A stretch of DNA of 64,000 bases from Rubrobacter taiwanensis (lineage in GTDB: Bacteria > Actinomycetota > Rubrobacteria > Rubrobacterales > Rubrobacteraceae), in NCBI RefSeq assembly GCF_004337705.1, contig NZ_SKBU01000031.1, positions 1-64,000 of the forward strand, read 5' to 3'. Under the pieces are notes generated by a model. The model was given only the letters and a program-made list of their open reading frames with translations. It was not told the DNA's origin and ran no database searches. Position numbers and translations under genes: made by a program. This document shows positions 15,874-31,052 of the stretch, in pieces (the stretch's first letter is position 1; the number at the start of each line of letters is the position of its first letter).

Positions 15874-16992
15874 TTACAAGACTTGATGGAGCGGCGTGTG
15901 GGGCAGTTTGTGGGCTTCGGCGACCGGTTCTGAGGTCAGGTTTCCATGCAGGGTGGCGATACCTTTGGCCAGCGCCTCGTCCTCTCTTGCCGCGCCCTCT
16001 ATGCCTTTGTCCGCCAGTTTTATCAGGTAGGGCAGCGTGGCACTGGTGAGCGCCAGCGTGGAGGTGCGGGCCACCGCACCGGGGATGTTGGCCACGCAGT
16101 AGTGGATGACCCCCTCCTCCACGTAGGTGGGATCGGAGTGGGTGGTAGGCCTTGCGGTCTCCACACATCCTCCTTGATCTATGGCCACGTCCACGATCAC
16201 CGAGCCGTCCCGCATGCTCTTCACCATCTCTCTGGTGACGAGCTTGGGGGCTCTGGCTCCCGGTACCAGAACCGCCCCTATGACCACATCGGACTCTTTT
16301 ACGTATGAGGCCAGCCGGGCCCGGTTCGGGATCACCAGGTCCACCCGCCCCCCGAAGATGTCCGAGAGGTAGGCAAGCCGCTTGGGGTTTATGTCTAAAA
16401 CCCTCACGATGGCCCGCATCCCAACCGCTATCTTTGCCGCCTCGGTGCCGACCACCCCGCCCCCGATGATGGTCACCTTCGCGGCAGGCGTTCCCGGAAC
16501 GCCTCCCAGCAGAAGTCCCGCCCCTCCCTGAGGGCTCTCCAAGCAGTGGGCCGCGGCCTGCACGCTCATCCTGCCCGCAACCTCGCTCATGGGCGTCAAG
16601 AGCGGCAGGGTGCCGTCCTCAAGCTCCACCGTCTCATAGGCCACCGCGTCTATCTTGCGCTCGATCAGAAACTCGGTGAGCCTCCTGTCGGCGGCAAGGT
16701 GCAGGTAGGTGAAGAGCCGCTGCCCCTCCCTGAAGAGCCCGTACTCTTCTTCAATGGGCTCCTTGACCTTCACGATCAGGTCGGCCCGCTCAAAGACCTC
16801 CTCCGCCGCCTTCGCCACCCGGGCCCCGGCCCGCGCATACTCCTCATCGGAGAATCCGGACCCCGCACCGGCACCCCGCTGCACGACCACCTCGTGACCG
16901 TGATGGATGAGCTCCTCCACACCGTCGGGCTGCAGGGCCACGCGGCCCTCCTGGTCCTTGATCTCTCTGGGTACTCCGACCACCGTAGCCAT
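15874..16992 (-). CDS. ald: Alanine dehydrogenase
   Basis: 372 residues from ATG 16992, chosen because GGAGAGGGTGAT precedes it; the open frame upstream adds 23 implausible residues. NAD-dependent L-alanine dehydrogenase deaminates alanine to pyruvate and ammonia. Visible are VGVPREIKDQEGRVALQPDG near 4-23, VKVKEPIEEEYGLF with the catalytic lysine near 73, FTYLHLAADRRLTE near 92 with the catalytic histidine, the NAD-binding GGGVVGTEAAKIA near 173, and DVAIDQGGCVETARPTTHSD near 268. Divergent from the MerR-XRE-cupin regulator. A possible -10 (TATATT) lies on the minus strand near 17052. Transhydrogenase alpha subunits are related but have a different C-terminus. Confidence 0.95.
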   Translation of the reverse strand: MATVVGVPREIKDQEGRVALQPDGVEELIHHGHEVVVQRGAGAGSGFSDEEYARAGARVAKAAEEVFERADLIVKVKEPIEEEYGLFREGQRLFTYLHLAADRRLTEFLIERKIDAVAYETVELEDGTLPLLTPMSEVAGRMSVQAAAHCLESPQGGAGLLLGGVPGTPAAKVTIIGGGVVGTEAAKIAVGMRAIVRVLDINPKRLAYLSDIFGGRVDLVIPNRARLASYVKESDVVIGAVLVPGARAPKLVTREMVKSMRDGSVIVDVAIDQGGCVETARPTTHSDPTYVEEGVIHYCVANIPGAVARTSTLALTSATLPYLIKLADKGIEGAAREDEALAKGIATLHGNLTSEPVAEAHKLPHTPLHQVL

Positions 16993-17120
16993 ATCACCCT
17001 CTCCCTCTCTCGTCCTGAAAGCGCCGGAGAAGCTCGCCCCGACCCCGTAAATATACCCCATTGCCCCGCGCCGGGACCCGCACCGCCCTTTCGCGCCACA
17101 TCCGGCGGACTGGTAGAATC

Positions 17121-17134
17121 ACTTTACAATAACG
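17121..17134 (-). promoter_or_regulatory. Copy 1 of a shared 14-base motif upstream of the regulator
   Basis: On the minus strand this reads CGTTATTGTAAAGT, matching CGTTACAGTAAAGT at 17992-18005 in 12 of 14 positions. It lies 37-50 bases before the regulator start, and its plus strand contains TACAAT, a possible -10. A candidate autoregulatory operator. Confidence 0.4.
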
Positions 17135-17170
17135 AGACAAGCCTACTGTGATGATAGCGCGCCTGGTGAG

Positions 17171-17983
17171 GTGGAGAGTTTGGCGGAGAGCTGCCCGGCA
17201 GGGTTCTCGATCGGGGAGGTAGCGGAGGCGATCGGGGTCGCCGCACAGACCCTGCGCCTGTGGGAACGGGAGCGCCTGATCTCCCCCCAGCGCACCGGCC
17301 GCGGATACCGGGTCTACACCGAACGGGATATCGAGCGGCTCAGACAGATAAAACGCCTGCGCGTCGTGGAAGGACTGAACTTCGCCGCCATCCGGCAGCG
17401 GCTCGGCCCGGCCGAGCCGAACGGCGCCGGACCCGGAGATAAGCGGCCCAACGCCCTCGGGGATCAACTCCGCAGAATGCGCGTCAAGTCCCGTAAGACC
17501 CTCCGGGAAGTCTCCGAGGCCACGGGCCTCTCCATCTCCTTCATCTCAGCGCTGGAGCGGGGCGAGAGCGGAGCCTCCGTGGCCTCCCTGCGGCGGCTGG
17601 CCGGCGTCTACAACGTCACCCTGCGCGAGATCTTCGGCGCCGACCTCAAACGTAACGTCCCCCTCGTGCGCCCGCACGAACGGCCGGTCATGCAGTGGGA
17701 GAACGGCGTCCGCTTCGAAGAGATGATCGTGGGCGAAAGCGTGATGGACCCCTCCTTCCTCCACGTCCCCCCCCGCTCCGGTAGCGAAGGCTTCTACTCC
17801 CACCACGGCGAAGAGTTTATCTACCTCCTCTCCGGTACCCTCTACGTGGAACTCAAAGAACGCGGTACTTACCAGCTCAAACCCGGCGATACCCTCCACT
17901 TCCCCTCTACCACCCCCCACCGCTGGTGGACCGAAGACGAAACCGCCGAAGCCATCTACGTCAATACCCCACCCACCTTCTAA
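17171..17983 (+). CDS. MerR-XRE-cupin three-domain transcriptional regulator
   Basis: 270 residues from GTG 17171; a TTG at 17180 is an alternative. Three domains follow one another: a MerR helix-turn-helix at about 11-80 (FSIGEVAEAIGVAAQTLRLW, GYRVYTERDIERL), an XRE helix-turn-helix at about 97-155 (TLREVSEATGLSISFISALE), and a cupin_2 sensor at about 190-268 (HHGEEFIYLLSGTLYVEL, KPGDTLHFPSTTPHRWW). The cupin keeps His/Glu residues that normally bind metal or ligand. XRE-cupin regulators include PuuR, the putrescine-utilisation repressor of E. coli, and the gene sits just before a polyamine operon, so polyamine or alanine control is the best guess. Having two different DNA-binding domains is uncommon. 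Confidence 0.85.
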   Translation: MESLAESCPAGFSIGEVAEAIGVAAQTLRLWERERLISPQRTGRGYRVYTERDIERLRQIKRLRVVEGLNFAAIRQRLGPAEPNGAGPGDKRPNALGDQLRRMRVKSRKTLREVSEATGLSISFISALERGESGASVASLRRLAGVYNVTLREIFGADLKRNVPLVRPHERPVMQWENGVRFEEMIVGESVMDPSFLHVPPRSGSEGFYSHHGEEFIYLLSGTLYVELKERGTYQLKPGDTLHFPSTTPHRWWTEDETAEAIYVNTPPTF

Positions 17984-17984
17984 C

Positions 17985-18013
17985 TTGACTGCGTTACAGT
18001 AAAGTTGTAAATT
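17985..18013 (+). promoter_or_regulatory. Promoter of the polyamine operon
   Basis: TTGACT (17985-17990) and TAAATT (18008-18013) with an ideal 17-base spacer, directly after the regulator stop codon and 60 bases before the aminotransferase start. It is among the best sigma-70 type matches in the window. The spacer carries the motif described separately. Confidence 0.65.
17992..18010. promoter_or_regulatory. Copy 2 of the shared motif, with an inverted repeat, between -35 and -10
   Basis: CGTTACAGTAAAGT (17992-18005) matches the site upstream of the regulator gene in 12 of 14 positions. It overlaps a perfect 5-base inverted repeat TTACA-7-TGTAA (17994-18010). Lying between -35 and -10 is typical of MerR activator sites and would also suit a repressor. 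Binding by the adjacent regulator is inference. Confidence 0.45.
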
Positions 18014-18072
18014 TCTTGGAAAGCGGGTGGGGAGAAAGCGGGGAACGGATTAGCTCCGGGAGGTCGGCGGTT

Positions 18073-19437
18073 ATGGACGTTATGCGGGGTCTTGGGGAGC
18101 GGGGGGAGGGTACGGGGCTGCCGGGGGTCGAGAACCTTCTGTTGCACTTCACGCCTTTCTCGGAGGACTGGTCGAAGCTGCCGGTGATCGTCGGCGGCGA
18201 GGGCTGTTACGTGAGGGATGCTGAGGGCCGGGAGTATGTGGACGGTCTTGCCGGCCTCTTTACGACGCAGGTCGGTCACGGGAGGAGTGAGCTGGCCGAG
18301 GCGGCGGCCGCGCAGATGAGGGAGCTGGGGTTCTTCCCCAACTGGAGTTTCCAGCATCCGAGGAGTCTGGAGCTGGCGGCACGGCTGGCGGGGCTGGCTC
18401 CGGGCGATCTCTCAACGACCTTCTTCGTCTCCTCTGGGTCTGAGGCGGTGGAGACGGTCATCAAGCTCGCGCGGCAGTACCACGCGGCCAATGGGGAGCC
18501 GGAGCGCTACAAGATCATTTCGCGCAAGATCGCCTACCACGGCACCACGCTGGGGGCGCTCTCGGTCACGGGGCTGCCCACCTTCAAGGCGCCGTTCGAG
18601 CCGCTGCTGCAGGGGTTTATGCACGTGCCCAACACCCAGCAGGACCCGGATGGCGCGGCGGACGCAATCGAGGAGGCGATAGAGTTCGGGCCGCCGGAGA
18701 GGGTTGCGGCGGTCATCCTGGAGCCGGTACAGAACGCCGGGGGGTGTCTGGTGCCGCCCGAGGGCTACTGGCGGCGGGTGCGTGAGATCTGCGACCGGCA
18801 CGGGGTGCTTCTGGTCTCGGACGCCGTGATCTGCGCGTTCGGGCGGCTGGGCGAGTGGTTCGGCATCGAGCGCTTCGGCGTGGTGCCGGACATGACCAGC
18901 TTCGCCAAGGGCGTGACCAGCGGGTACCTGCCGATGGGCGGGGTGGTGGTGAGCGAGAGGGTCCGGGACACCTTGAGGGCTGGCGCCCCGATGTTCGCCC
19001 ACGGCTCCACCTTCGGCGGCCATCCGGTCTCCGCGGCGGTGGCCTTGAAGAACATCGAGATTATCGAGCGCGAGAAGCTCCTTGAGAACGTGCGTGAGCT
19101 GGAGGGGCACTTCGAGAGCGAGCTGAAGCGGATGGCCGAAGGCCACCCCATTGTCGAGGAGGTGCGGGGGATGGGCTTCTTCTGGGCCGTCGAGGTCCGG
19201 CCCGAGCGGGCCGACGGTACGCCGCTTCAGGAGGAGGAGTACCAGAAGTACTTCAAGGGGGTGCTCTCCAGGAAGCTGCTGGAGGGCGGTCTCATCTGCC
19301 GCTTCGACGACAAGGACGAGCCCGTCATCCAGTACTCGCCGGCGCTTATTGCGGACCGGGAGGTCCTCTCGAAGATCGCCGAGATAACCGATGGGGCCCT
19401 CACCGAGCTGGAGCGCCAGCTCGGGTACCGGAGCTAG
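18073..19437 (+). CDS. Class III aminotransferase, probable putrescine/polyamine:pyruvate aminotransferase
   Basis: 454 residues from ATG 18073 (GGGAGGT upstream); an in-frame upstream start at 18016 is less likely. PLP-dependent class III omega-aminotransferase. Landmarks: YVDGLAGLFTTQVGHGR near 60, FFVSSGSEAVETVIKLARQY near 117, YHGTTLGALSVTG near 156, EPVQNAGGCLVPP near 220, SDAVICAFGRLGEWFG with the PLP-ring aspartate near 254, and TSFAKGVTSGYLPMGG with the PLP lysine near 280. It resembles SpuC/beta-alanine:pyruvate-type enzymes that move a terminal amine to pyruvate, giving alanine and an aminoaldehyde. First gene of the polyamine operon; alanine formed could feed the nearby alanine dehydrogenase. 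Confidence 0.85.
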   Translation: MDVMRGLGERGEGTGLPGVENLLLHFTPFSEDWSKLPVIVGGEGCYVRDAEGREYVDGLAGLFTTQVGHGRSELAEAAAAQMRELGFFPNWSFQHPRSLELAARLAGLAPGDLSTTFFVSSGSEAVETVIKLARQYHAANGEPERYKIISRKIAYHGTTLGALSVTGLPTFKAPFEPLLQGFMHVPNTQQDPDGAADAIEEAIEFGPPERVAAVILEPVQNAGGCLVPPEGYWRRVREICDRHGVLLVSDAVICAFGRLGEWFGIERFGVVPDMTSFAKGVTSGYLPMGGVVVSERVRDTLRAGAPMFAHGSTFGGHPVSAAVALKNIEIIEREKLLENVRELEGHFESELKRMAEGHPIVEEVRGMGFFWAVEVRPERADGTPLQEEEYQKYFKGVLSRKLLEGGLICRFDDKDEPVIQYSPALIADREVLSKIAEITDGALTELERQLGYRS

Positions 19438-19441
19438 AGCG

Positions 19442-20779
19442 ATGACCGCCCCCGACGTGGCCGTTGTCGGGGCGGGACTCTCCGGACTTGCTGCCGCCCG
19501 GGAGCTTGTGCGGGAGGGGCTGGATGTCCTCGTCCTCGAAGCCCGCGACCGGCCCGGCGGCCGCACCGGGGTTATGGAGGTCGGCGGCGTCACGGTAGAT
19601 ATAGGGGGCGAGTGGGTGGACGCGGCGCACTCGGAGCTGCGGGGTCTCATCTCCGAACTCGGCCTGAAGCTCGTTCCGGCCGGGGACGGGAAGGGGCGGG
19701 CCCGCTGGCACGTCGGCGGCGAGTTCAGCCCGGAGATGCCGCTGGACGGTGGGGACGCGGCCGCATACGACCGGATGCAGGAGGCGCTGGCAGATGCGGC
19801 GGAGGGTGTGGACCCGGAGGCCTGCTGGAGGTTTGCGCCCGGCGAAGACCTCAGCGTCGAGCAGTGGTTGCGGCGCGAGGGGATGAGCGAGCGCGGGATA
19901 CACGCGGTCGAGACCATAGTCTCCACCTGCGGCTCCACCGTCCCGCTGCGGCGCATGTCCTTCTACGCCTACGCGGTCAAGGTCGCGGGCCGGGGCGGTC
20001 CGGGCCGGGGGAACGAGTACCGGGTGCGGGGCGGGGCCGGGGGCGTGGCCCGCGCGCTGGCCGGCGAGCTCGGGGAGCGCGTGCGCTACCGCTCGCCGGT
20101 GGTGGAGGTCCGGCAGGACGGAGGGGGGGTGGCGCTGCGCTACGTCTCTCCGGACGGTCCCGGCGAGGTGCGGGCGCGGAGGGCTGTTCTGGCGCTGCCG
20201 TTCACCTGCTACCGGGGTGTAAGCTTCCATCCCCCGCCGCCCCCCGTCTTCCGGCGCATGTTCGCGCGGGCCACCTATGGCGTGGTGCGCAAGGTCCACT
20301 TCATCTTCGGCCGGCCGGTGGGCGGGGCGCCCTTCACCATCACGGACACGCCTCTGGGGTACTGCTGCCCCTCGCAGGCGAGCGGCGGGGCGGGCGGCAT
20401 CGTCGCGTTCGCCGGGGGGGAGGTGCTCCTGCCCGAGCTAGGTCTGCCTGCGGCGGAGCGCGAGCGGCGGGCCGTGCGGCAGCTGCGGCGCCTCTACGAC
20501 GTGCCGGAGCCCGAGGTGGTGGTGGAGAAGGTCTGGCCCCACGACTATTGGACCCGGGGGAGCTACATGATCCTGGCTCCCGGGGATCTGCGGGGCTTCG
20601 GGGAGGCGATGGGCGGCCGCTTCGGGTGCGTGTACCTGGCCGGTGCGGAGGGGATCGCCGCGGCTCCCAGCTTCATGAACAGTGCGGTGAGGAGCGGACT
20701 GCGGGCCGCCGGTAAGATATTAGAGGAGATAAGCGTGCCGCGGCGGTCCCGGGCCGGGACGGGGACCGGCGAGGTGTGA
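19442..20779 (+). CDS. Flavin amine oxidase (putrescine/polyamine oxidase-like)
   Basis: 445 residues from ATG 19442, four bases after the aminotransferase stop. Monoamine-oxidase-type flavoprotein: the FAD Rossmann motif VVGAGLSGLAAARELVREG begins near residue 8, followed by LEARDRPGGRTG near 32 and GGEWVDAAHSEL near 55; the C-terminal FAD loop reads YLAGAEGIAAAPSFMNSAVRSG. No signal peptide is present, so it works in the cytoplasm on imported amines. Context with PotADBC and aminoaldehyde dehydrogenases suggests putrescine or another polyamine as substrate, giving aminoaldehyde, ammonia and hydrogen peroxide. Tyramine or other monoamines cannot be excluded from sequence. Confidence 0.82.
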   Translation: MTAPDVAVVGAGLSGLAAARELVREGLDVLVLEARDRPGGRTGVMEVGGVTVDIGGEWVDAAHSELRGLISELGLKLVPAGDGKGRARWHVGGEFSPEMPLDGGDAAAYDRMQEALADAAEGVDPEACWRFAPGEDLSVEQWLRREGMSERGIHAVETIVSTCGSTVPLRRMSFYAYAVKVAGRGGPGRGNEYRVRGGAGGVARALAGELGERVRYRSPVVEVRQDGGGVALRYVSPDGPGEVRARRAVLALPFTCYRGVSFHPPPPPVFRRMFARATYGVVRKVHFIFGRPVGGAPFTITDTPLGYCCPSQASGGAGGIVAFAGGEVLLPELGLPAAERERRAVRQLRRLYDVPEPEVVVEKVWPHDYWTRGSYMILAPGDLRGFGEAMGGRFGCVYLAGAEGIAAAPSFMNSAVRSGLRAAGKILEEISVPRRSRAGTGTGEV

Positions 20780-20798: not shown

Positions 20799-21926
20799 GT
20801 GAGAGAGAGACAGACGCAGGAGCGGCCGCCGGAGGCGGCGCGCGGGGCCGCCCGGCCGGCGGCCGTGGAGCTGGCAGGGGTCACGAAGCGCTTTGAGGAC
20901 TTCGTGGCCGTAGACGACCTGACGCTGAGCATCTACGAGGGGGAGTTCTTCTCGCTGCTCGGGCCGTCGGGGTGCGGCAAGACCACGACCCTGCGCATGA
21001 TAGCCGGGTTCGAGGATCCCACCGAGGGTGAGCTGCGGGTGGCCGGGCGCCCGATGCGGGGCGTGCCGCCCTACAGGAGGCCCGTCAACACCGTGTTCCA
21101 GAGCTACGCGCTCTTCCCGCATCTGGACGTCTTTGAGAACATCGCGTTCGGGCTCCGGAGGGCCAAGGTGCCGAAGGACGAGATCCGGCGCCGGGTATCC
21201 GAGGCGTGTGCGCTGGTGCAGCTCACCGGGTTCGAGAGGCGGAAGCCCGCCAGGCTCTCCGGCGGGCAGCAGCAGCGGGTGGCGCTCGCGCGCGCCCTCG
21301 TCAACCGCCCGAAGGTCCTGCTGCTGGACGAGCCGCTGGGCGCTCTGGATCTCAAGCTGCGCAAGGAGATGCAGATAGAGCTCAAGAACCTCCAGCACGA
21401 GCTCGGCATCACCTTCGTCTACGTTACCCACGATCAGGAAGAGGCGCTCACCATGAGCGACCGCATAGCGGTGATGAAGGACGGAAAGGTGCAGCAGCTC
21501 GACACGCCTGCGAACCTCTACGAGCTTCCGGCCAACCGCTTCGTGGCCGGGTTCATCGGGCAGACCAACACCTTCTCCGGCGAGGTGGAGTCGGTCCGGG
21601 GGGAGCGGGTGACCCTGAGGACTGCCGGCGGGCTGGAGCTGGAGGCGTTCGCGCCCGCGGGGCGCGAGGTGGTCAAGGGCTCGGAGGCGCACGTGGCCGT
21701 CCGGCCCGAGAAGGTTCGGTTCGGGGAGGCGGGGGACAACGCCTTCGCCGGGGAGGTGCGCGACGTGGTCTACCTGGGGTCGAGCACCCAGTACGTCGTG
21801 GAGCTCAAGGGCGGCGAGCGGCTCGTGGTCTACCGGCAGAACGCCCGCGAGGCCGCCGACTCCGGCGCGGGCGACGAGGTGTGGGTCGCGTGGGACGCTG
21901 CAAACTGTCTGGTGCTGGGAGAGTAG
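20799..21926 (+). CDS. potA: Spermidine/putrescine ABC transporter ATP-binding protein PotA
   Basis: 375 residues from GTG 20799 (GGGAGGAG upstream). ATPase of a type I importer: Walker A GPSGCGKTTTLR near residue 52, Q-loop FQSYALFPHL, signature LSGGQQQRVALARAL near 151-165, Walker B VLLLDEPLGALD near 171, H-loop VTHDQEEA near 205. A TOBE domain fills the last 100 residues (VAVRPEKVRF), usual for PotA/CUT1-type ATPases. The first 25 residues are an Arg/Ala-rich lead of no clear function. Gene order potA-potD-potB-potC directly after amine catabolism genes supports polyamine specificity, though the ATPase alone does not show it. Confidence 0.92.
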   Translation: MRERQTQERPPEAARGAARPAAVELAGVTKRFEDFVAVDDLTLSIYEGEFFSLLGPSGCGKTTTLRMIAGFEDPTEGELRVAGRPMRGVPPYRRPVNTVFQSYALFPHLDVFENIAFGLRRAKVPKDEIRRRVSEACALVQLTGFERRKPARLSGGQQQRVALARALVNRPKVLLLDEPLGALDLKLRKEMQIELKNLQHELGITFVYVTHDQEEALTMSDRIAVMKDGKVQQLDTPANLYELPANRFVAGFIGQTNTFSGEVESVRGERVTLRTAGGLELEAFAPAGREVVKGSEAHVAVRPEKVRFGEAGDNAFAGEVRDVVYLGSSTQYVVELKGGERLVVYRQNAREAADSGAGDEVWVAWDAANCLVLGE

Positions 21927-21928
21927 CT

Positions 21929-23032
21929 ATGAAGGGAAGAAGGATAAGCCGGCGGGATTTCCTCAAGCGGCTGGGCGCGGGGGCCGTGGCGGGCTCGACG
22001 CTCACGGTGCTCTCCGCCTGCACGGTCGACACCGCGCCCCGGCAGGGCGGAGACGGTGGGAGCGAGGGCGGCGGCACGCTCAACCTCTACAACTGGTCGG
22101 ACTACGTGGCGGAGACTACCATCCCCGGTTTCGAGGAGGAGTTCGGGGTACGGGTCGTGCAGGACTTCTACGCCTCCAACGAGGAGCTTCTGGCCAAGCT
22201 GCAGGCGGGGGGAACCGGGTACGACGTGATCGTGCCGAGCGACTACATGGTCGAGATCATGGCCAAGAGCGGGGTCATCCAGGAGCTGGACATGGCGAAG
22301 ATCCCGAACTTCGAGAACGTCGGGGAGAACTTCCGGGGGCTCCCCTACGATCCGGAGAACCGCTACAGCGTGCCCTACCAGTGGGGCACCACCGGCATAC
22401 TCTACGACCGGGAGGAGGTCGGGGAGGTTGAGAGCTGGGACGCTATGTGGGACGAGCGGTACGCCGGCCGGATCGCCATGATAGACGATGTGCGGGAGAC
22501 CATCGGGGCGGCGCTGATGCGCCTGGGTTACTCCATAAACTCCACCGACGAGGGAGAGCTCGGGGAGGCCCGGGAGCTCTTGCTGGAGCAGAAGCCGCTG
22601 TTGCGCGGGTACTTCGCCTCGACCGAGATCGTGCCGCTCGTGGAGAGCGGGGACGTCTTGCTCGGGCACGTGTTCTCCGGCGAGGGCATACTCGCGACGG
22701 TGGAGAACGAGAACCTGGCCTACGCCATTCCGAAGCCGGCGGCCACCCGCTGGACCGACAACATGTGCATCCCGGCGGGCGCTCCGAACCCGGATTTGGC
22801 CCACGAGTTCATAAACTACATCCTGGATGCGCAGGTGGGGGCCGATCTGACCAACTACACCTACTACGGGACGCCGAACGAGGCCGCGCTGCCGCTGATA
22901 GACGAGGAGCTGACCAGTATCCCGGAGTGGAACCCTCCGGATGAGGTCTTCGACCGGCTGCAGGTCATAGAGGACGTGGGCGAGGCGACCCGCGACTACG
23001 AGCGCATCTTCACCGAAGTAAAGAGCGCGTGA
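21929..23032 (+). CDS. potD: Polyamine-binding lipoprotein PotD/PotF-like, Tat-exported
   Basis: 367 residues from ATG 21929, two bases after potA. The N-terminus has a twin-arginine motif (SRRDFLKRLG, residues 8-17) and then a hydrophobic segment ending in the lipobox LSAC, so the mature protein is probably folded before Tat export and lipid-anchored at the new N-terminal cysteine. The body is a periplasmic-binding fold of the PotD/PotF group: LNLYNWSDYVAETTIPGFEE near 51, YDVIVPSDYMVEIM near 96, VPYQWGTTGILYD near 144 and GAPNPDLAHEFINYIL near 287. The aromatic and acidic residues expected to bind polyamines (NWSDY, SDYMVE) are present. It delivers substrate to PotB and PotC. Confidence 0.92.
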   Translation: MKGRRISRRDFLKRLGAGAVAGSTLTVLSACTVDTAPRQGGDGGSEGGGTLNLYNWSDYVAETTIPGFEEEFGVRVVQDFYASNEELLAKLQAGGTGYDVIVPSDYMVEIMAKSGVIQELDMAKIPNFENVGENFRGLPYDPENRYSVPYQWGTTGILYDREEVGEVESWDAMWDERYAGRIAMIDDVRETIGAALMRLGYSINSTDEGELGEARELLLEQKPLLRGYFASTEIVPLVESGDVLLGHVFSGEGILATVENENLAYAIPKPAATRWTDNMCIPAGAPNPDLAHEFINYILDAQVGADLTNYTYYGTPNEAALPLIDEELTSIPEWNPPDEVFDRLQVIEDVGEATRDYERIFTEVKSA

Positions 23033-23033
23033 G

Positions 23034-23912
23034 ATGGCGGCGCAGAAAGGAGTGGATAAAGGGCGTGGCTGGAGCCTGGGGCTGGCCGGGCTGCTGGCGC
23101 CGGCGGCGTTCTGGCTCGGGGTCTTCTTTCTGGTGCCGCTGCTCCTCATCCTGGCCTACTCCTTCGGGACCAGCGGCGTCTACGGCGGCATAACGCTCGG
23201 CTTCAACCCCGAGAACTACCTGAAGGTCTTCGACCCGCTCTATCTGCAGATCATAGTCCGCTCCACGGTCATCGCGCTGCTGAACACCTTGATCTGCCTG
23301 GCCATCGGGTACCCGCTGGCATACTTCATCGCGTTCAGGGGCGGCTCCTGGAAGACGGCGCTCATCCTGCTGGTCATGATCCCGTTCTGGACCAGTCTCT
23401 TGGTGCGGGCTTACGCCTGGGTCGTCATCCTGGGCGGCAACGGCCTCGCCAACCGCACGCTCCAGTTCCTCGGGATAACCGACGGCCCCATAACCCTCAT
23501 CTTCACCCCGCAGGCGGTGATGATGGGGCTGGTCTACTCCTACCTGCCGTTCATGGTGCTGCCGCTCTACGCCTCGCTGGAGAAGTTCGACGCGCGGCTC
23601 AAGGAGGCGGCGCAGGATCTCGGGGCGAGCCGCTGGCAGACCTTCTGGCGGGTGACGTTCCCCTTGAGCCTGCCGGGGGTCATAGCCGGGAGCATCCTGG
23701 TCTTCATCCCGTCGGCCGGGGAGTTCGTGATCCCGGATCTTCTGGGCGGCTCGCAGACGGTGATGACCGGCAACCTCATCCAGCAGCAGTTCCTCAACGC
23801 CCGCGACTGGGCGTTCGGCAGCGCCTTGGCGGTCATGCTCGCGGTGCTGATGCTGGGAGCGATCCTGATCTACGTCCGCCGGATAGGCACCGACAGGCTG
23901 GAGGGGGTGTGA
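23034..23912 (+). CDS. potB: Polyamine ABC transporter permease PotB
   Basis: 292 residues starting one base after the potD stop. Inner-membrane permease with six predicted helices; the first reads GLLAPAAFWLGVFFLVPLLL. The coupling-helix EAA loop is ASLEKFDARLKEAAQDLGAS-RWQTFWRVTFPLSLPG near residues 182-215, in the position that contacts PotA. Partner of PotC in the heterodimeric membrane domain. Confidence 0.93.
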   Translation: MAAQKGVDKGRGWSLGLAGLLAPAAFWLGVFFLVPLLLILAYSFGTSGVYGGITLGFNPENYLKVFDPLYLQIIVRSTVIALLNTLICLAIGYPLAYFIAFRGGSWKTALILLVMIPFWTSLLVRAYAWVVILGGNGLANRTLQFLGITDGPITLIFTPQAVMMGLVYSYLPFMVLPLYASLEKFDARLKEAAQDLGASRWQTFWRVTFPLSLPGVIAGSILVFIPSAGEFVIPDLLGGSQTVMTGNLIQQQFLNARDWAFGSALAVMLAVLMLGAILIYVRRIGTDRLEGV

Positions 23913-23913
23913 G

Positions 23914-24723
23914 ATGGTGCGGGGTGCCCCGATCCTGAAGCGGGTGGGCAGCCTGCCGGACTGGGCTCTGCTCTTGTTTGCGGGCCTGGTCTACCTCTTC
24001 CTCTACGCCCCGATCTTCGTGCTGATGTTCTTCTCGTTCAACTCGGCGCGCAGCACGCAGGTCTGGGAGGGATTCTCGCTGCGGTGGTACGCCGAGCTGT
24101 TCCGCGATCAGTCGGTGCTGGACGCTTTCTACACCTCGATGGTGGTAGGCGTTACGGCTACCGCGATCTCCACCGTCATCGGGACGCTCGCGGCGCTGGC
24201 GCTGGCGCGCCACAGCTTCCGGGGCAAGACGCTGGCGGACTCCACGATCTACGCTGCGACCGTGATGCCGGAGATCGTGGTCGGGGTGAGCCTGCTGGCG
24301 TTCTTCGTGGCCGTGCAGTTCCAGCTCGGCATAACCACGATCATCATCGCGCACGTGGCGTTCTGCATCTCGTTCGTGACCATCGTGGTGCGGGCGCGTC
24401 TCTCGGGCATGGACCGCTCGCTGGAGGAGGCGGCGATGGACCTCGGTGCCGACCCGCCCACCACGTTCATGAAGATAACGCTGCCCCTGATCCTGCCCGG
24501 CGTGATGGCCGGAGCACTTCTGGCGTTTACGCTCTCGTTCGACGACTTCGTGATCACGTTCTTCGTGGCCGGTGCGGGGGCGAGCACGCTGCCGCTGAAG
24601 ATCTACTCCATGATCAAGTTCGGCGTCAGCCCGGTCATCAACGCGCTCTCGACCGTGCTCCTGGTCGCCACGCTCGTCTGCATCCTGGGCGGCAGCAGGT
24701 TCTTCTCGCGCAAGGAGGAGTGA
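23914..24723 (+). CDS. potC: Polyamine ABC transporter permease PotC
   Basis: 269 residues starting one base after potB. Six hydrophobic segments, beginning with LLLFAGLVYLFLYAPIFVLMFFSFN, a segment closely conserved in PotC/PotI. The EAA loop SGMDRSLEEAAMDLGADPPT near residues 166-185 is followed by FMKITLPLILPGVMAG. It completes the importer with PotA, PotD and PotB. Its TGA is directly followed by the ATG of the aldehyde dehydrogenase (TGAATG), so transport and catabolism share one transcript. Confidence 0.93.
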   Translation: MVRGAPILKRVGSLPDWALLLFAGLVYLFLYAPIFVLMFFSFNSARSTQVWEGFSLRWYAELFRDQSVLDAFYTSMVVGVTATAISTVIGTLAALALARHSFRGKTLADSTIYAATVMPEIVVGVSLLAFFVAVQFQLGITTIIIAHVAFCISFVTIVVRARLSGMDRSLEEAAMDLGADPPTTFMKITLPLILPGVMAGALLAFTLSFDDFVITFFVAGAGASTLPLKIYSMIKFGVSPVINALSTVLLVATLVCILGGSRFFSRKEE

Positions 24724-26133
24724 ATGACGGAGACCCTGAAGGTTATCAACCCCGCGACCGGCGAGGTTATGGAGGAGGTCCCGGTCACCACCCGGGAGGA
24801 GCTGGACGCGGCCGTGGCCCGGGCCCGCTCCGGCTTCCGGGAGTGGCGGCGGGTACCGGGCCTGGAGCGGGCGGAGCTCTTTCATGAGATCTCCCGCCGC
24901 TTCCGGGAGCACGGCGACGAGCTGGCGGAGATCATGACGCGCGAGGGCGGCAAGCCGTTCATCGAGAACCGGGACGAGGTGGACTGGACGGCGGCCTGCT
25001 TCGACTACTACGCCGAGATCGCCCGCGACAACGTCGGATACTTGCCCGCTCCGATCGAGGCGCAGCAGCTCGCGCTCGTGATCCGGGAGCCGCTGGGCGT
25101 CGTCGCCTGCATCGTGCCCTGGAACTACCCGCTGCTGCTGGCGGCCTGGAAGCTGGCCCCGGCGCTCGCCGCGGGCAACGCCGCTCTCCTGAAGCCCTCC
25201 GAGGAGACGCCGCTCGCCACCCGCCGGATGGTGGAGCTGATGGAGGGCCTGCCGGAGGGAGCGGTGGAGATAGTGTTCGGGGCCGGGGAGGTGGGGGAGG
25301 CGATGGTGCGCCACCCCGGCGTGGACATGGTCGCCTTCACCGGGAGCCAGGAGACGGGCCGGAGGGTGGGCGCGATCGCCGCCGAGCGCCTGATGCGCTC
25401 CAACCTGGAGCTGGGCGGCAAGGACCCGTTCATCATCTGCGACGACGTAGATGTGGAGGTTGCCGCCCGCGGGGCCGTGTGGGCTGCCTGCCTGAACGCC
25501 GGGCAGGTGTGCACTTCGGCCGAGCGCTTCTACGTGCTGCCGCAGATAGCCGGCGACTTCATCGAGGCGGCGAAGGCGCACGCCGAGTCGCTCGTCATCG
25601 GCGACCCGATGGACCGCAGAACCGACCTCGGGCCGCTCATCAACGAGCCGGGGCGGGAGAAGGTGGAGCGGCACGTGGAGAGCGCGGTACGCTCGGGCGC
25701 GCAGCTCGTCACCGGCGGCGGGCGGTGGGGCGAGCGGGGATACTTCTACCGGCCCACCATACTCACCGGGGTCACGCCCGACATGCCGGTGATGCGTGAC
25801 GAGACCTTCGGACCGGTCCTGCCGGTTACGGAGGTGCGCGATCTGGACGAGGCCATAGAGCTCGCTAACTCCACACCGTACGGGCTCGGGGCGAACGTAT
25901 ACACGCTGGACTTCGAGAAGATGCTCAAATGCATGCGCGAGATAAGGGCCGGGACGGTCTGGATCAACGACCCCCTCACGGACAACGACGCGGCCCCGTT
26001 CGGCGGGCAGAAGGGGAGCGGCATCGGCCGCGAGCTGGGCCGCGACGGGCTTCAGGCCTTCCAGGAGACCAAACACGTGCACATAGATTCCCGCATAGAG
26101 GTTAAGGAGTGGTGGTACCCGTACGGGGAGTGA
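24724..26133 (+). CDS. Aldehyde dehydrogenase (first of two), probable aminoaldehyde/semialdehyde oxidation
   Basis: 469 residues, NAD(P)-dependent ALDH superfamily. Catalytic glutamate lies in NLELGGKDPF near residue 229 and nucleophilic cysteine in NAGQVCTSAERF near 262; VPWNYPLLLAAWKLAPALAA near 125 is the coenzyme-binding stretch. Immediately after potC with no spacer. In the polyamine setting it could oxidise 4-aminobutanal to GABA or succinate semialdehyde to succinate; the sequence alone does not separate these. The two ALDH genes of this operon differ widely, so a two-step division of labour is more likely than redundancy. Confidence 0.8.
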   Translation: MTETLKVINPATGEVMEEVPVTTREELDAAVARARSGFREWRRVPGLERAELFHEISRRFREHGDELAEIMTREGGKPFIENRDEVDWTAACFDYYAEIARDNVGYLPAPIEAQQLALVIREPLGVVACIVPWNYPLLLAAWKLAPALAAGNAALLKPSEETPLATRRMVELMEGLPEGAVEIVFGAGEVGEAMVRHPGVDMVAFTGSQETGRRVGAIAAERLMRSNLELGGKDPFIICDDVDVEVAARGAVWAACLNAGQVCTSAERFYVLPQIAGDFIEAAKAHAESLVIGDPMDRRTDLGPLINEPGREKVERHVESAVRSGAQLVTGGGRWGERGYFYRPTILTGVTPDMPVMRDETFGPVLPVTEVRDLDEAIELANSTPYGLGANVYTLDFEKMLKCMREIRAGTVWINDPLTDNDAAPFGGQKGSGIGRELGRDGLQAFQETKHVHIDSRIEVKEWWYPYGE

Positions 26134-26163
26134 ACGGCCCGGAGATATGAGGAGGAGAAGGAT

Positions 26164-27600
26164 ATGCAGACAGAAGTTAGGCACCTGAGGAACTTCATCG
26201 GGGGGCGGTTCGTGGAGGCCGCTGCCGGCCGCCTCTACGACGTGGTTAATCCGGCCACCGGCGAGGTCTTCGCCCGGGCTCCGCTATCGGGTCGGGAGGA
26301 CGTGGAGCGGGCCTTTGAGGCGGCTGAGCGGGCGTTCGAGACGTGGCGGGACTCCACACCTTCGGAGCGGCAGCGGGCGCTGCTGCGCATAGCTGATGCG
26401 GTCGAGGAGCGCGCCGGCGAGCTGGTGCGGGCCGAGTCAGAGAACACCGGCAAGCCCTATGCGCTCACGATGGAGGAGGAAGTTCCGGCGATGGCCGATC
26501 AGATCCGGTTCTTCGCCGGAGCGGCCCGGTGCCTCGAAGGCAAGTCCGCCGGGGAGTATCTGCGGGGGATGACCTCCTACATCCGGCGGGAGCCGATCGG
26601 GGTCTGCGCCCAGATCACGCCCTGGAACTACCCGATGCTGATGGCCGTCTGGAAGTTCGCTCCGGCCATAGCCGCCGGCAATACGGTGGTGCTCAAGCCC
26701 AGCGAGACGACGCCGGTAACCACCCTGCTGCTCGCGGAGATGGCCGCGGAGTTCCTCCCCGAGGGCGTCTTCAACGTGGTCTGCGGCGACCGGGACACCG
26801 GGAGGCTGCTCGTGGATCACCCGACGCCGCAGATGGTCGCGATTACCGGCTCGGTGCGCGCCGGGATGGAGGTGGCGGAGGCGGCCGCAAGGGACCTGAA
26901 GCGGGTGCACCTGGAGCTGGGCGGCAAGGCGCCGGTGATCGTCTTCGACGACGCCGACCCTGAGGCCGCCGCCGAAGCCATAGCCGGGGCCGGGTACTTC
27001 AATGCCGGGCAGGACTGCACCGCGGCCACCCGGGTTCTGGCCTCCCCTGCCATCCACGACGAGTTCGTCGCCGCCCTCACCGAGCGGGCTAAAAACACCC
27101 GCACGGGACCGCCGGACGACGAGGAGGCCTACTACGGGCCCCTGAACAACGAGAACCAGCTGGCGCGCGTCAGCGGCATAGTGGAACGCCTCCCTGACCA
27201 CGCGGAGATAATGACCGGCGGGGAGCGGGTCGGAGAGCGGGGGTTCTTCTTCGCCCCCACCGTGGTCTCGGGTCTGAGGCAGGAGGACGAGGCTTCGCAG
27301 ACCGAGATCTTCGGCCCCGTCATCACCGTACAGCCCTTCTCCGACGAGGACGAGGCCGTCCGCTGGGCCAACGGGGTGAAGTACGGGCTGGCATCGAGCG
27401 TCTTTACCCGCGACCACGGCCGGGCGATGAGGGTGAGCCGGCGGCTGGACTTCGGGTGCGTCTGGATCAACACCCACATCCCGCTGGTGGCCGAGATGCC
27501 GCACGGCGGCTTCAAGCACTCGGGCTACGGCAAGGATCTCTCGATGTACGGCCTGGAGGACTACACCCGCATAAAGCACGTGATGAGCAGCCTGGACTAG
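26164..27600 (+). CDS. Aldehyde dehydrogenase (second of two), gamma-aminobutyraldehyde dehydrogenase-like
   Basis: 478 residues from ATG 26164 after GAGGAGAAGGAT. Motifs: TPWNYPMLMAVWKFAPAIAAGNTVVLKPSE near 155, catalytic glutamate in HLELGGKAPV near 252, cysteine in NAGQDCTAATRV near 285. The cysteine context GQDCTAATR and the tail PHGGFKHSGYGKDLSMYGLEDY are those of PatD/YdcW-type 4-aminobutyraldehyde dehydrogenases, which make GABA from putrescine-derived aldehyde. Last gene of the operon. Its TAG shares CTAG (27597-27600) with the stop of the convergent LOV phosphatase gene, leaving no room for a terminator between them. Confidence 0.85.
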   Translation: MQTEVRHLRNFIGGRFVEAAAGRLYDVVNPATGEVFARAPLSGREDVERAFEAAERAFETWRDSTPSERQRALLRIADAVEERAGELVRAESENTGKPYALTMEEEVPAMADQIRFFAGAARCLEGKSAGEYLRGMTSYIRREPIGVCAQITPWNYPMLMAVWKFAPAIAAGNTVVLKPSETTPVTTLLLAEMAAEFLPEGVFNVVCGDRDTGRLLVDHPTPQMVAITGSVRAGMEVAEAAARDLKRVHLELGGKAPVIVFDDADPEAAAEAIAGAGYFNAGQDCTAATRVLASPAIHDEFVAALTERAKNTRTGPPDDEEAYYGPLNNENQLARVSGIVERLPDHAEIMTGGERVGERGFFFAPTVVSGLRQEDEASQTEIFGPVITVQPFSDEDEAVRWANGVKYGLASSVFTRDHGRAMRVSRRLDFGCVWINTHIPLVAEMPHGGFKHSGYGKDLSMYGLEDYTRIKHVMSSLD

Positions 27601-30098: not shown

Positions 30099-31052
30099 AT
30101 GACCCGCTACGCGCCGGCCGACTCGTTCGAGACCCCGCGTTTCTCGGGGGTGCGCACGTTCATGCGCCTGCCGCACACCCGGGATTTGGAGAACAGCGAC
30201 GTGGCCATCGTGGGCGCGCCGTTCGACACGGGGGCGACCTTCCGCGCCGGAGCCCGGTTCGGGCCGGAGGGCATCCGCAGCGCCTCGCACCTGCTGCGGC
30301 CGTACAACCCCTCGCTGGATGTGAACATCTTCGACCACCTCTCGATCGTAGACTACGGCGACGTGCCGGTGGTGCCGGGCTATATAGAGTCGAGCTACGA
30401 GCGCATCGCGGCCGGACTGGAGCCCATCCACCGGGCCGGGGTCGTGCCGGTGGTGCTCGGCGGCGACCACTCCATCGCCCAGCCCGAGCTGCGGGCGGCC
30501 GCCGCGGTGCACGGCCCTGTAGCCATCGTTCAGTTCGACGCCCACGCCGACACCTGGGACAACTACTTCGGCGAGCGCCTCACCCACGGTACGTCCTTCC
30601 GCCGGGCGGTCGAGGAGGGGCTGGTACGCCCCGAGCGCTCCATCCAGGTCGGGATGCGGGGCTCCCTCTACGGTCCGGAAGACCTGCAGGACTCGAGGGA
30701 TCTGGGCTACGCGCTGCTCACTACCGACGATGTGCGCGAGATCGGGATACCGGAGACGGTCTCCCGCATCCGCGAGCGGGTGGGGGACGCGAAGGTCTAC
30801 GTCTCCTTCGACATAGACTTCGTGGACCCGGCGTTCGCTCCCGGTACGGGTACGCCGGAGATCGGCGGGTTCACCGGCCGGGAGGCGCAGGAGTTCGTGC
30901 GGGGGCTCGCGGGACTCGACATCGTCGGCTGTGATGTGGTCGAGGTTTACCCGGCTTACGATCCGGCGCAGGTCACGGCGTTCGTGGCGGCCAACGTAGC
31001 GTACGAGCTGCTGAGCGTGCTCGCGCTGAACCGGAAGCGCGGGGGAAGCTGA
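30099..31052 (+). CDS. speB: Agmatinase
   Basis: 317 residues from ATG 30099 (GAAGGGAGTGGT upstream). Ureohydrolase family, hydrolysing agmatine to putrescine and urea with a dinuclear Mn centre. All metal motifs are seen: GGDHSIAQ near 124, DAHADTWDNYFGE near 147 and SFDIDFVDPAFAPGTGTPE near 238. The active-site WDNY and length match agmatinases better than arginases (shorter insertion, family-typical FAPGTGTPE); guanidinobutyrase and proclavaminate amidino hydrolase are relatives that cannot be fully excluded. It would supply putrescine from arginine to the catabolic genes 3 kb upstream, although it is a separate transcription unit. Confidence 0.88.
   Translation: MTRYAPADSFETPRFSGVRTFMRLPHTRDLENSDVAIVGAPFDTGATFRAGARFGPEGIRSASHLLRPYNPSLDVNIFDHLSIVDYGDVPVVPGYIESSYERIAAGLEPIHRAGVVPVVLGGDHSIAQPELRAAAAVHGPVAIVQFDAHADTWDNYFGERLTHGTSFRRAVEEGLVRPERSIQVGMRGSLYGPEDLQDSRDLGYALLTTDDVREIGIPETVSRIRERVGDAKVYVSFDIDFVDPAFAPGTGTPEIGGFTGREAQEFVRGLAGLDIVGCDVVEVYPAYDPAQVTAFVAANVAYELLSVLALNRKRGGS

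Follow-up and report, generated by a model that had tools for sequence, protein, structure and literature searches.

A MerR-XRE-cupin regulator beside ald and a polyamine gene cluster in Rubrobacter taiwanensis, and its predicted operator

The regulator gene and its neighbourhood

The window, the whole 64-kb stretch of Rubrobacter taiwanensis DNA that was analysed, contains at 17171-17983 on the forward strand a gene for a regulator of 270 residues, open throughout from a GTG start to a TAA stop and assigned by its Pfam domains and orthologues. Upstream of it, in divergent orientation, lies ald, encoding alanine dehydrogenase (15874-16992, reverse strand; TIGR00518, E = 3.2e-154, above cut-off). 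Downstream, on the forward strand, follow a class-III aminotransferase (18073-19437; NF005102, E = 1.8e-192, above cut-off), a flavin amine oxidase (19391-20779; PF01593, E = 4.1e-58), PotA-, PotD-, PotB- and PotC-like genes of a polyamine ABC transporter (20799-24723; NCBIfam matches, of which only TIGR01187, potA, passes its cut-off), and two aldehyde dehydrogenases (24724-27600), the second of which (26164-27600) is an aminobutyraldehyde dehydrogenase (NF010000, E = 8.4e-219, above cut-off). The genes from the aminotransferase to the aldehyde dehydrogenases are nearly contiguous, and an agmatinase gene is found at 30099-31052. A sequence-only reading of this DNA had placed the regulator between ald and a polyamine operon; the TIGR00518 match and the amine and polyamine genes downstream bear this out.

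Domains and predicted structure

Three colinear domains were found in the regulator, all of them exceeding the Pfam gathering scores that served as cut-offs. The MerR winged-helix domain comprises residues 12-77 (17204-17401, forward strand; PF13411, MerR_1, E = 2.6e-22, 79.1 bits, cut-off 21.6). It is followed by a variable linker (residues 79-94; 17405-17452, forward strand), which is poorly conserved in the alignment and modelled with low confidence (pLDDT below 50 at 84-93), by an XRE/Cro helix-turn-helix domain (residues 95-155; 17453-17635, forward strand; PF01381, HTH_3, at 100-154, E = 1.4e-14, 54.3 bits, cut-off 23), and by a cupin sensor domain (residues 172-270; 17684-17980, forward strand; PF07883, Cupin_2, at 197-263, E = 1e-14, 54.4 bits, cut-off 27.2). 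The earlier reading of one 270-residue protein with MerR, XRE and cupin domains was thus confirmed, with profile support for both of its helix-turn-helix domains. In the alignment of members, Ser123, Ser126, Glu129 and Arg130 of the XRE domain are invariant, as are His211, Glu214, His250 and the C-terminal NTPPTF of the cupin domain.

An AlphaFold2 model, built with 14 sequences, revealed three confident domains (mean pLDDT 79), whose relative placement is uncertain because the pTM is 0.45. The MerR domain was modelled with helices at 14-21, 25-33, 51-66 and 71-78 and a wing at 47-49; an unstructured linker around 84-93 leads into a five-helix XRE bundle (95-154), which is followed by a beta-rich cupin. 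The N-terminal winged helix (PF13411) is that of the classical MerR family, but the long coiled-coil dimerisation helix that follows it in classical MerR proteins is absent from the model, where a disordered linker and the XRE domain come next. The best fold match in the PDB was 1y9q, an HTH_3 family regulator. With PF01381 followed by PF07883, the protein belongs to the XRE-cupin domain class, and it resembles the PuuR/PauR-type repressors in this domain order, in an alignment with PuuR over residues 94-270, and in its adjoining amine catabolism genes. It differs from them in the extra N-terminal MerR domain, and it scores far below the cut-off of the PuuR equivalog NF007408 (43.5 versus 211 bits). 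By its profile matches, the regulator is a MerR winged helix fused to a PuuR-like XRE-cupin regulator.

Spread of the three-domain architecture

The regulator's own genome has a single full-length copy of the gene. Of 40 genomes of the order, 24 have a full-length orthologue, with 53-73% identity outside the own genome, and a phylum-wide sample added one further, distant genome (36% identity). An order-wide survey centred on another actinobacterial relative, that of genome G038, found the protein restricted to G038's own genus. When genome contigs were searched by alignment, close relatives matched over their full length and the remaining matches covered mainly the MerR domain. Relatives with at least 80% query coverage and E of at most 1e-20 were present in 121 plasmid records, from Sinorhizobium, Shinella, Ensifer, Agrobacterium, Arthrobacter, Embleya and others; where annotated, they bear only the name "MerR family transcriptional regulator". 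Relatives in Rhizobiaceae, Arthrobacter and others are 35-39% identical to the window's regulator. A survey of the architecture across genomes, proposed with the sequence-only reading, therefore found it not to be rare, on the plasmid records alone. All six diverse members that were rescanned carry all three domains above cut-off.

The MerR domain is the best conserved between clades (44-52% versus 30-38% identity). For pairs of members, the identity of the MerR domains correlates with that of the XRE domains (Spearman 0.69), and almost every member has an NTPPTF-like motif at its C terminus; together, these two features fit one old fusion. A sequencing or joining artefact of two genes, which would have undone the earlier reading, was rejected, since the reading frame is intact and full-length orthologues occur in the order and in distant taxa. 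Judged from these sequence comparisons, the architecture is genuine as well as old and common, and no curiosity of one genome. No published description of any member was found in a literature search that had most subscription journals outside its reach, and the group, though widespread, is apparently uncharacterised.

Predicted operators and promoter in the window

A motif, CTTACAGTAANNATGTAAG, was first spotted by eye around the regulator gene. A search of the window with the pattern YTTACARTAANNNTGYAAG, allowing up to three mismatches and with dinucleotide shuffles as the background, gave two matches in 64 kb compared to 0.08 expected, and both flank the regulator gene. Predicted operator 1, TTTACAATAACGAGACAAG (17123-17141, forward strand), lies in the ald-regulator intergenic region and has a weak right half-site; it corresponds to the ald-promoter sites of relatives. 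Predicted operator 2, GTTACAGTAAAGTTGTAAA (17993-18011, forward strand), lies in the aminotransferase promoter and was identified by the pattern match and by the position weight matrix (PWM) and dyad comparisons given below. Its core, TTACA-N7-TGTAA at 17994-18010, satisfies the operator deduced here for the regulator, a 17-bp dyad YTRCA-N7-TGYAR that is new to this work. The sequence-only reading had imagined two different half-sites or the bridging of two promoters; what was found is a single symmetric 17-bp dyad at each promoter separately, which lends no support to that part of it.

A sigma-70-like promoter predicted for the aminotransferase operon, TTGACT-17-TAAATT (17985-18013, forward strand), is the only promoter-like match in 16980-18120, where 0.1 is expected, and its 17-bp spacer between -35 and -10 is filled by predicted operator 2. 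A site in this position is also where MerR proteins bind, and the regulator might then activate by untwisting the DNA, as classical MerR proteins do. We consider this very unlikely, because the MerR heavy-metal regulators untwist promoters with spacers of 19-20 bp (PMC5045206), whereas the spacer here is of normal length, and because the model lacks the coiled-coil dimerisation helix. Repression by occlusion is favoured over untwisting, since operator 2 lies inside a normally spaced promoter.

In the order-wide pattern search, the own genome gave matches only at the regulator locus and inside the 23S rRNA gene. The latter (G000:C6:140397), considered as an additional target, was rejected as a chance match within 23S rRNA. 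Near this position (L131; 1688-2104, reverse strand), an open reading frame for a LAGLIDADG endonuclease lies inside the 23S rRNA gene, a location pointing to an intron or a homing element inserted in the rRNA. The same genome also encodes an XRE-cupin paralogue that is PuuR-like and lacks a MerR domain (L002; 1495-2148, reverse strand; G000:C6 about 120779-121429). An operator-like sequence, ATTTACCGTAAAGTTTTGTGCAAG, lies just upstream of this paralogue and was not seen near its one orthologue. Nor was the inner palindrome TTACNGTAA, considered as an XRE site, seen near that single orthologue.

The operator in genomes with and without the regulator

Two PWMs were trained on one target and applied to the other, with mononucleotide shuffles, which were also used in the dyad-spacing count. 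PWM A, trained only on aminotransferase promoters, scored a mean of 14.2 at the ald upstream regions of regulator-bearing genomes (n = 19) and 5.2 at those of regulator-lacking genomes (n = 7; p = 0.002). PWM B, trained only on ald sites, scored 10.3 at non-adjacent aminotransferase promoters of regulator-bearing genomes (n = 15) versus 4.5 where the regulator is lacking (n = 10; p = 0.03); both p-values are optimistic because the genomes are related, and many of the compared genomes are metagenome-assembled (MAGs). By this measure, genomes without the regulator mostly lack the predicted operator too. The exceptions are the MAGs G196 and G304, which have sites and no detected regulator. PWM B found no site at the aminotransferase promoters of G077, G099 and G054 or at the distant aminotransferase copy of G041, and PWM A found none at ald of G142 or at the second ald copy of G260. 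The earlier proposal that both neighbours of the regulator are targets is well supported, by a predicted operator common to both promoters and by PWM tests in both directions.

At one locus (L151, G196:C9), the operator is kept at ald, the regulator gene does not adjoin it, and another MerR-type open reading frame lies upstream, suggesting loss or rearrangement. In G041, the aminotransferase copy beside the regulator (G041:C4:366290-367441) is interrupted by a stop codon; a second, intact copy (G041:C2:5229-6590) lies elsewhere without an operator.

The dyad at rhizobial loci and how it may be read

In Sinorhizobium meliloti, S. medicae, Shinella and Agrobacterium, the relative is divergent from an adjoining 4-aminobutyrate transaminase gene, and most of these rhizobial loci also carry a succinate-semialdehyde dehydrogenase gene beside it. 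A third group of relatives adjoins electron-transfer flavoprotein, folD and purU genes. The rhizobial regulators beside gabT-gabD (e.g., WQP25603.1 of S. meliloti pSymB) share with the window's regulator the three domains, NTPPTF and an upstream YTRCA-N7-TGYAR, but are 35-39% identical to it and adjoin genes for GABA transaminase and succinate-semialdehyde dehydrogenase rather than ald and a polyamine cluster. Their gabT-regulator intergenic regions contain TTGCA-TTTTTTC-TGCAA and CTACA-TTTTTTC-TGCAA.

As a spacing control, YTRCA-Nk-TGYAR was counted for k from 2 to 21, the dyad having been defined on data before this control. At k = 7, 13 of 15 rhizobial upstream regions, which are partly near-copies, matched, where shuffles gave an expectation of 0.06; k = 15 (seven regions) and k = 4 (five regions) ranked next. 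All five Rubrobacter-type aminotransferase promoters adjoining the regulator matched at k = 7, as did 5 of 24 upstream regions exactly and most of the others with one mismatch. The spacing count gave no clear dyad at the two actinobacterial relatives in G038 and G389. In Shinella and Neorhizobium (L190, L199, L200, L202 and L203), two tandem dyads lie upstream of the regulator, 33 bp apart (29 bp in L199) and followed by a further TGCAA.

The MerR winged helices are the most likely readers of the dyad, given the precedent of GlnR and TnrA and the stronger conservation of the MerR domain between clades. In those MerR-type proteins, a MerR winged helix that lacks the coiled coil reads 17-bp inverted repeats, whose halves stand 7 bp apart, at promoters of normal spacing (PMC6191146). 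The window's regulator is alike in its winged helix, in the length and spacing of its predicted operator and in the promoter spacing; it differs in its half-sites, predicted as YTRCA...TGYAR versus TGTNA...TNACA, and in having XRE and cupin domains. GlnR and TnrA carry a short glutamine-synthetase-sensing tail. Alternatively, the dyad could be recognised by the XRE domain, just as ordinary XRE-cupin repressors recognise their sites, with the MerR domain an accessory module. The Pseudomonas XRE-cupin proteins are local inhibitors of metabolic gene transcription that bind palindromes as dimers (PMC7901475), and residues 94-270 align with PuuR; however, it is the MerR domain that is better conserved between clades having the dyad in common, and a 17-bp repeat with a 7-bp spacer has a MerR-type precedent, so that we regard reading by the XRE domain as unlikely.

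Somewhat less improbable, though still doubtful, is that both domains read DNA, the MerR domain on the N7 dyad and the XRE domain on the inner TTAC-N-GTAA or the flanking TGCAA/TACT, which would lengthen the site and make it more specific. The XRE domain scores above cut-off in all tested members and keeps its four invariant residues, and the inner and flanking sequence is conserved within each clade. Between clades, however, the flanks differ, as does the dyad centre (GTAA versus a T-tract), and the N7 dyad is what they have in common.

Proposed mechanism

With reading by the MerR domain preferred, the regulator probably represses amine and polyamine catabolism locally and under the control of a ligand: it would bind the dyad, block the ald and aminotransferase promoters and be released by an amine-derived effector. 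A local repressor that couples amine transamination to alanine recycling is supported by the predicted operators at both promoters, by their absence pattern across genomes, by the recurrence of the 7-bp spacing at rhizobial gabT loci, and by the fact that the only two sites in the window flank the gene. Dimers would be joined through the XRE/cupin part, and the MerR winged helices would, from the geometry and the domain conservation, bind YTRCA-N7-TGYAR. By occupying the ald promoter and, at the aminotransferase promoter, the spacer between -35 and -10, the regulator would block RNA polymerase until an amine-derived effector of the cupin, e.g., putrescine, GABA or an aminoaldehyde, released it from the DNA.

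Pyruvate-linked transamination yields alanine, which Ald turns back into pyruvate. If the transaminase uses pyruvate as acceptor, alanine would be formed and pyruvate regenerated by alanine dehydrogenase; ald and the aminotransferase would then belong together metabolically, because Ald would recycle the alanine.

Significance

What is new here is the predicted operator; the domain architecture itself is already widespread in sequence records. For these uninformatively named regulators, in more than 100 plasmid records and including those of rhizobial gabT loci, an operator and targets can now be predicted, along with a mechanism that can be put to the test. For the relatives of Rubrobacter, joint control of alanine recycling and amine transamination is predicted. 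It is conceivable, albeit with low confidence, that the group is a distinct widespread family whose members recognise a single composite operator with both the MerR and the XRE domain of the same chain, the N7 dyad having been kept between Actinomycetota and Alphaproteobacteria while the targets changed. If this is true, specificity would arise from two classes of fold together, governed by a single cupin sensor. The group invites the question of why two folds for DNA binding were retained side by side in a single chain.
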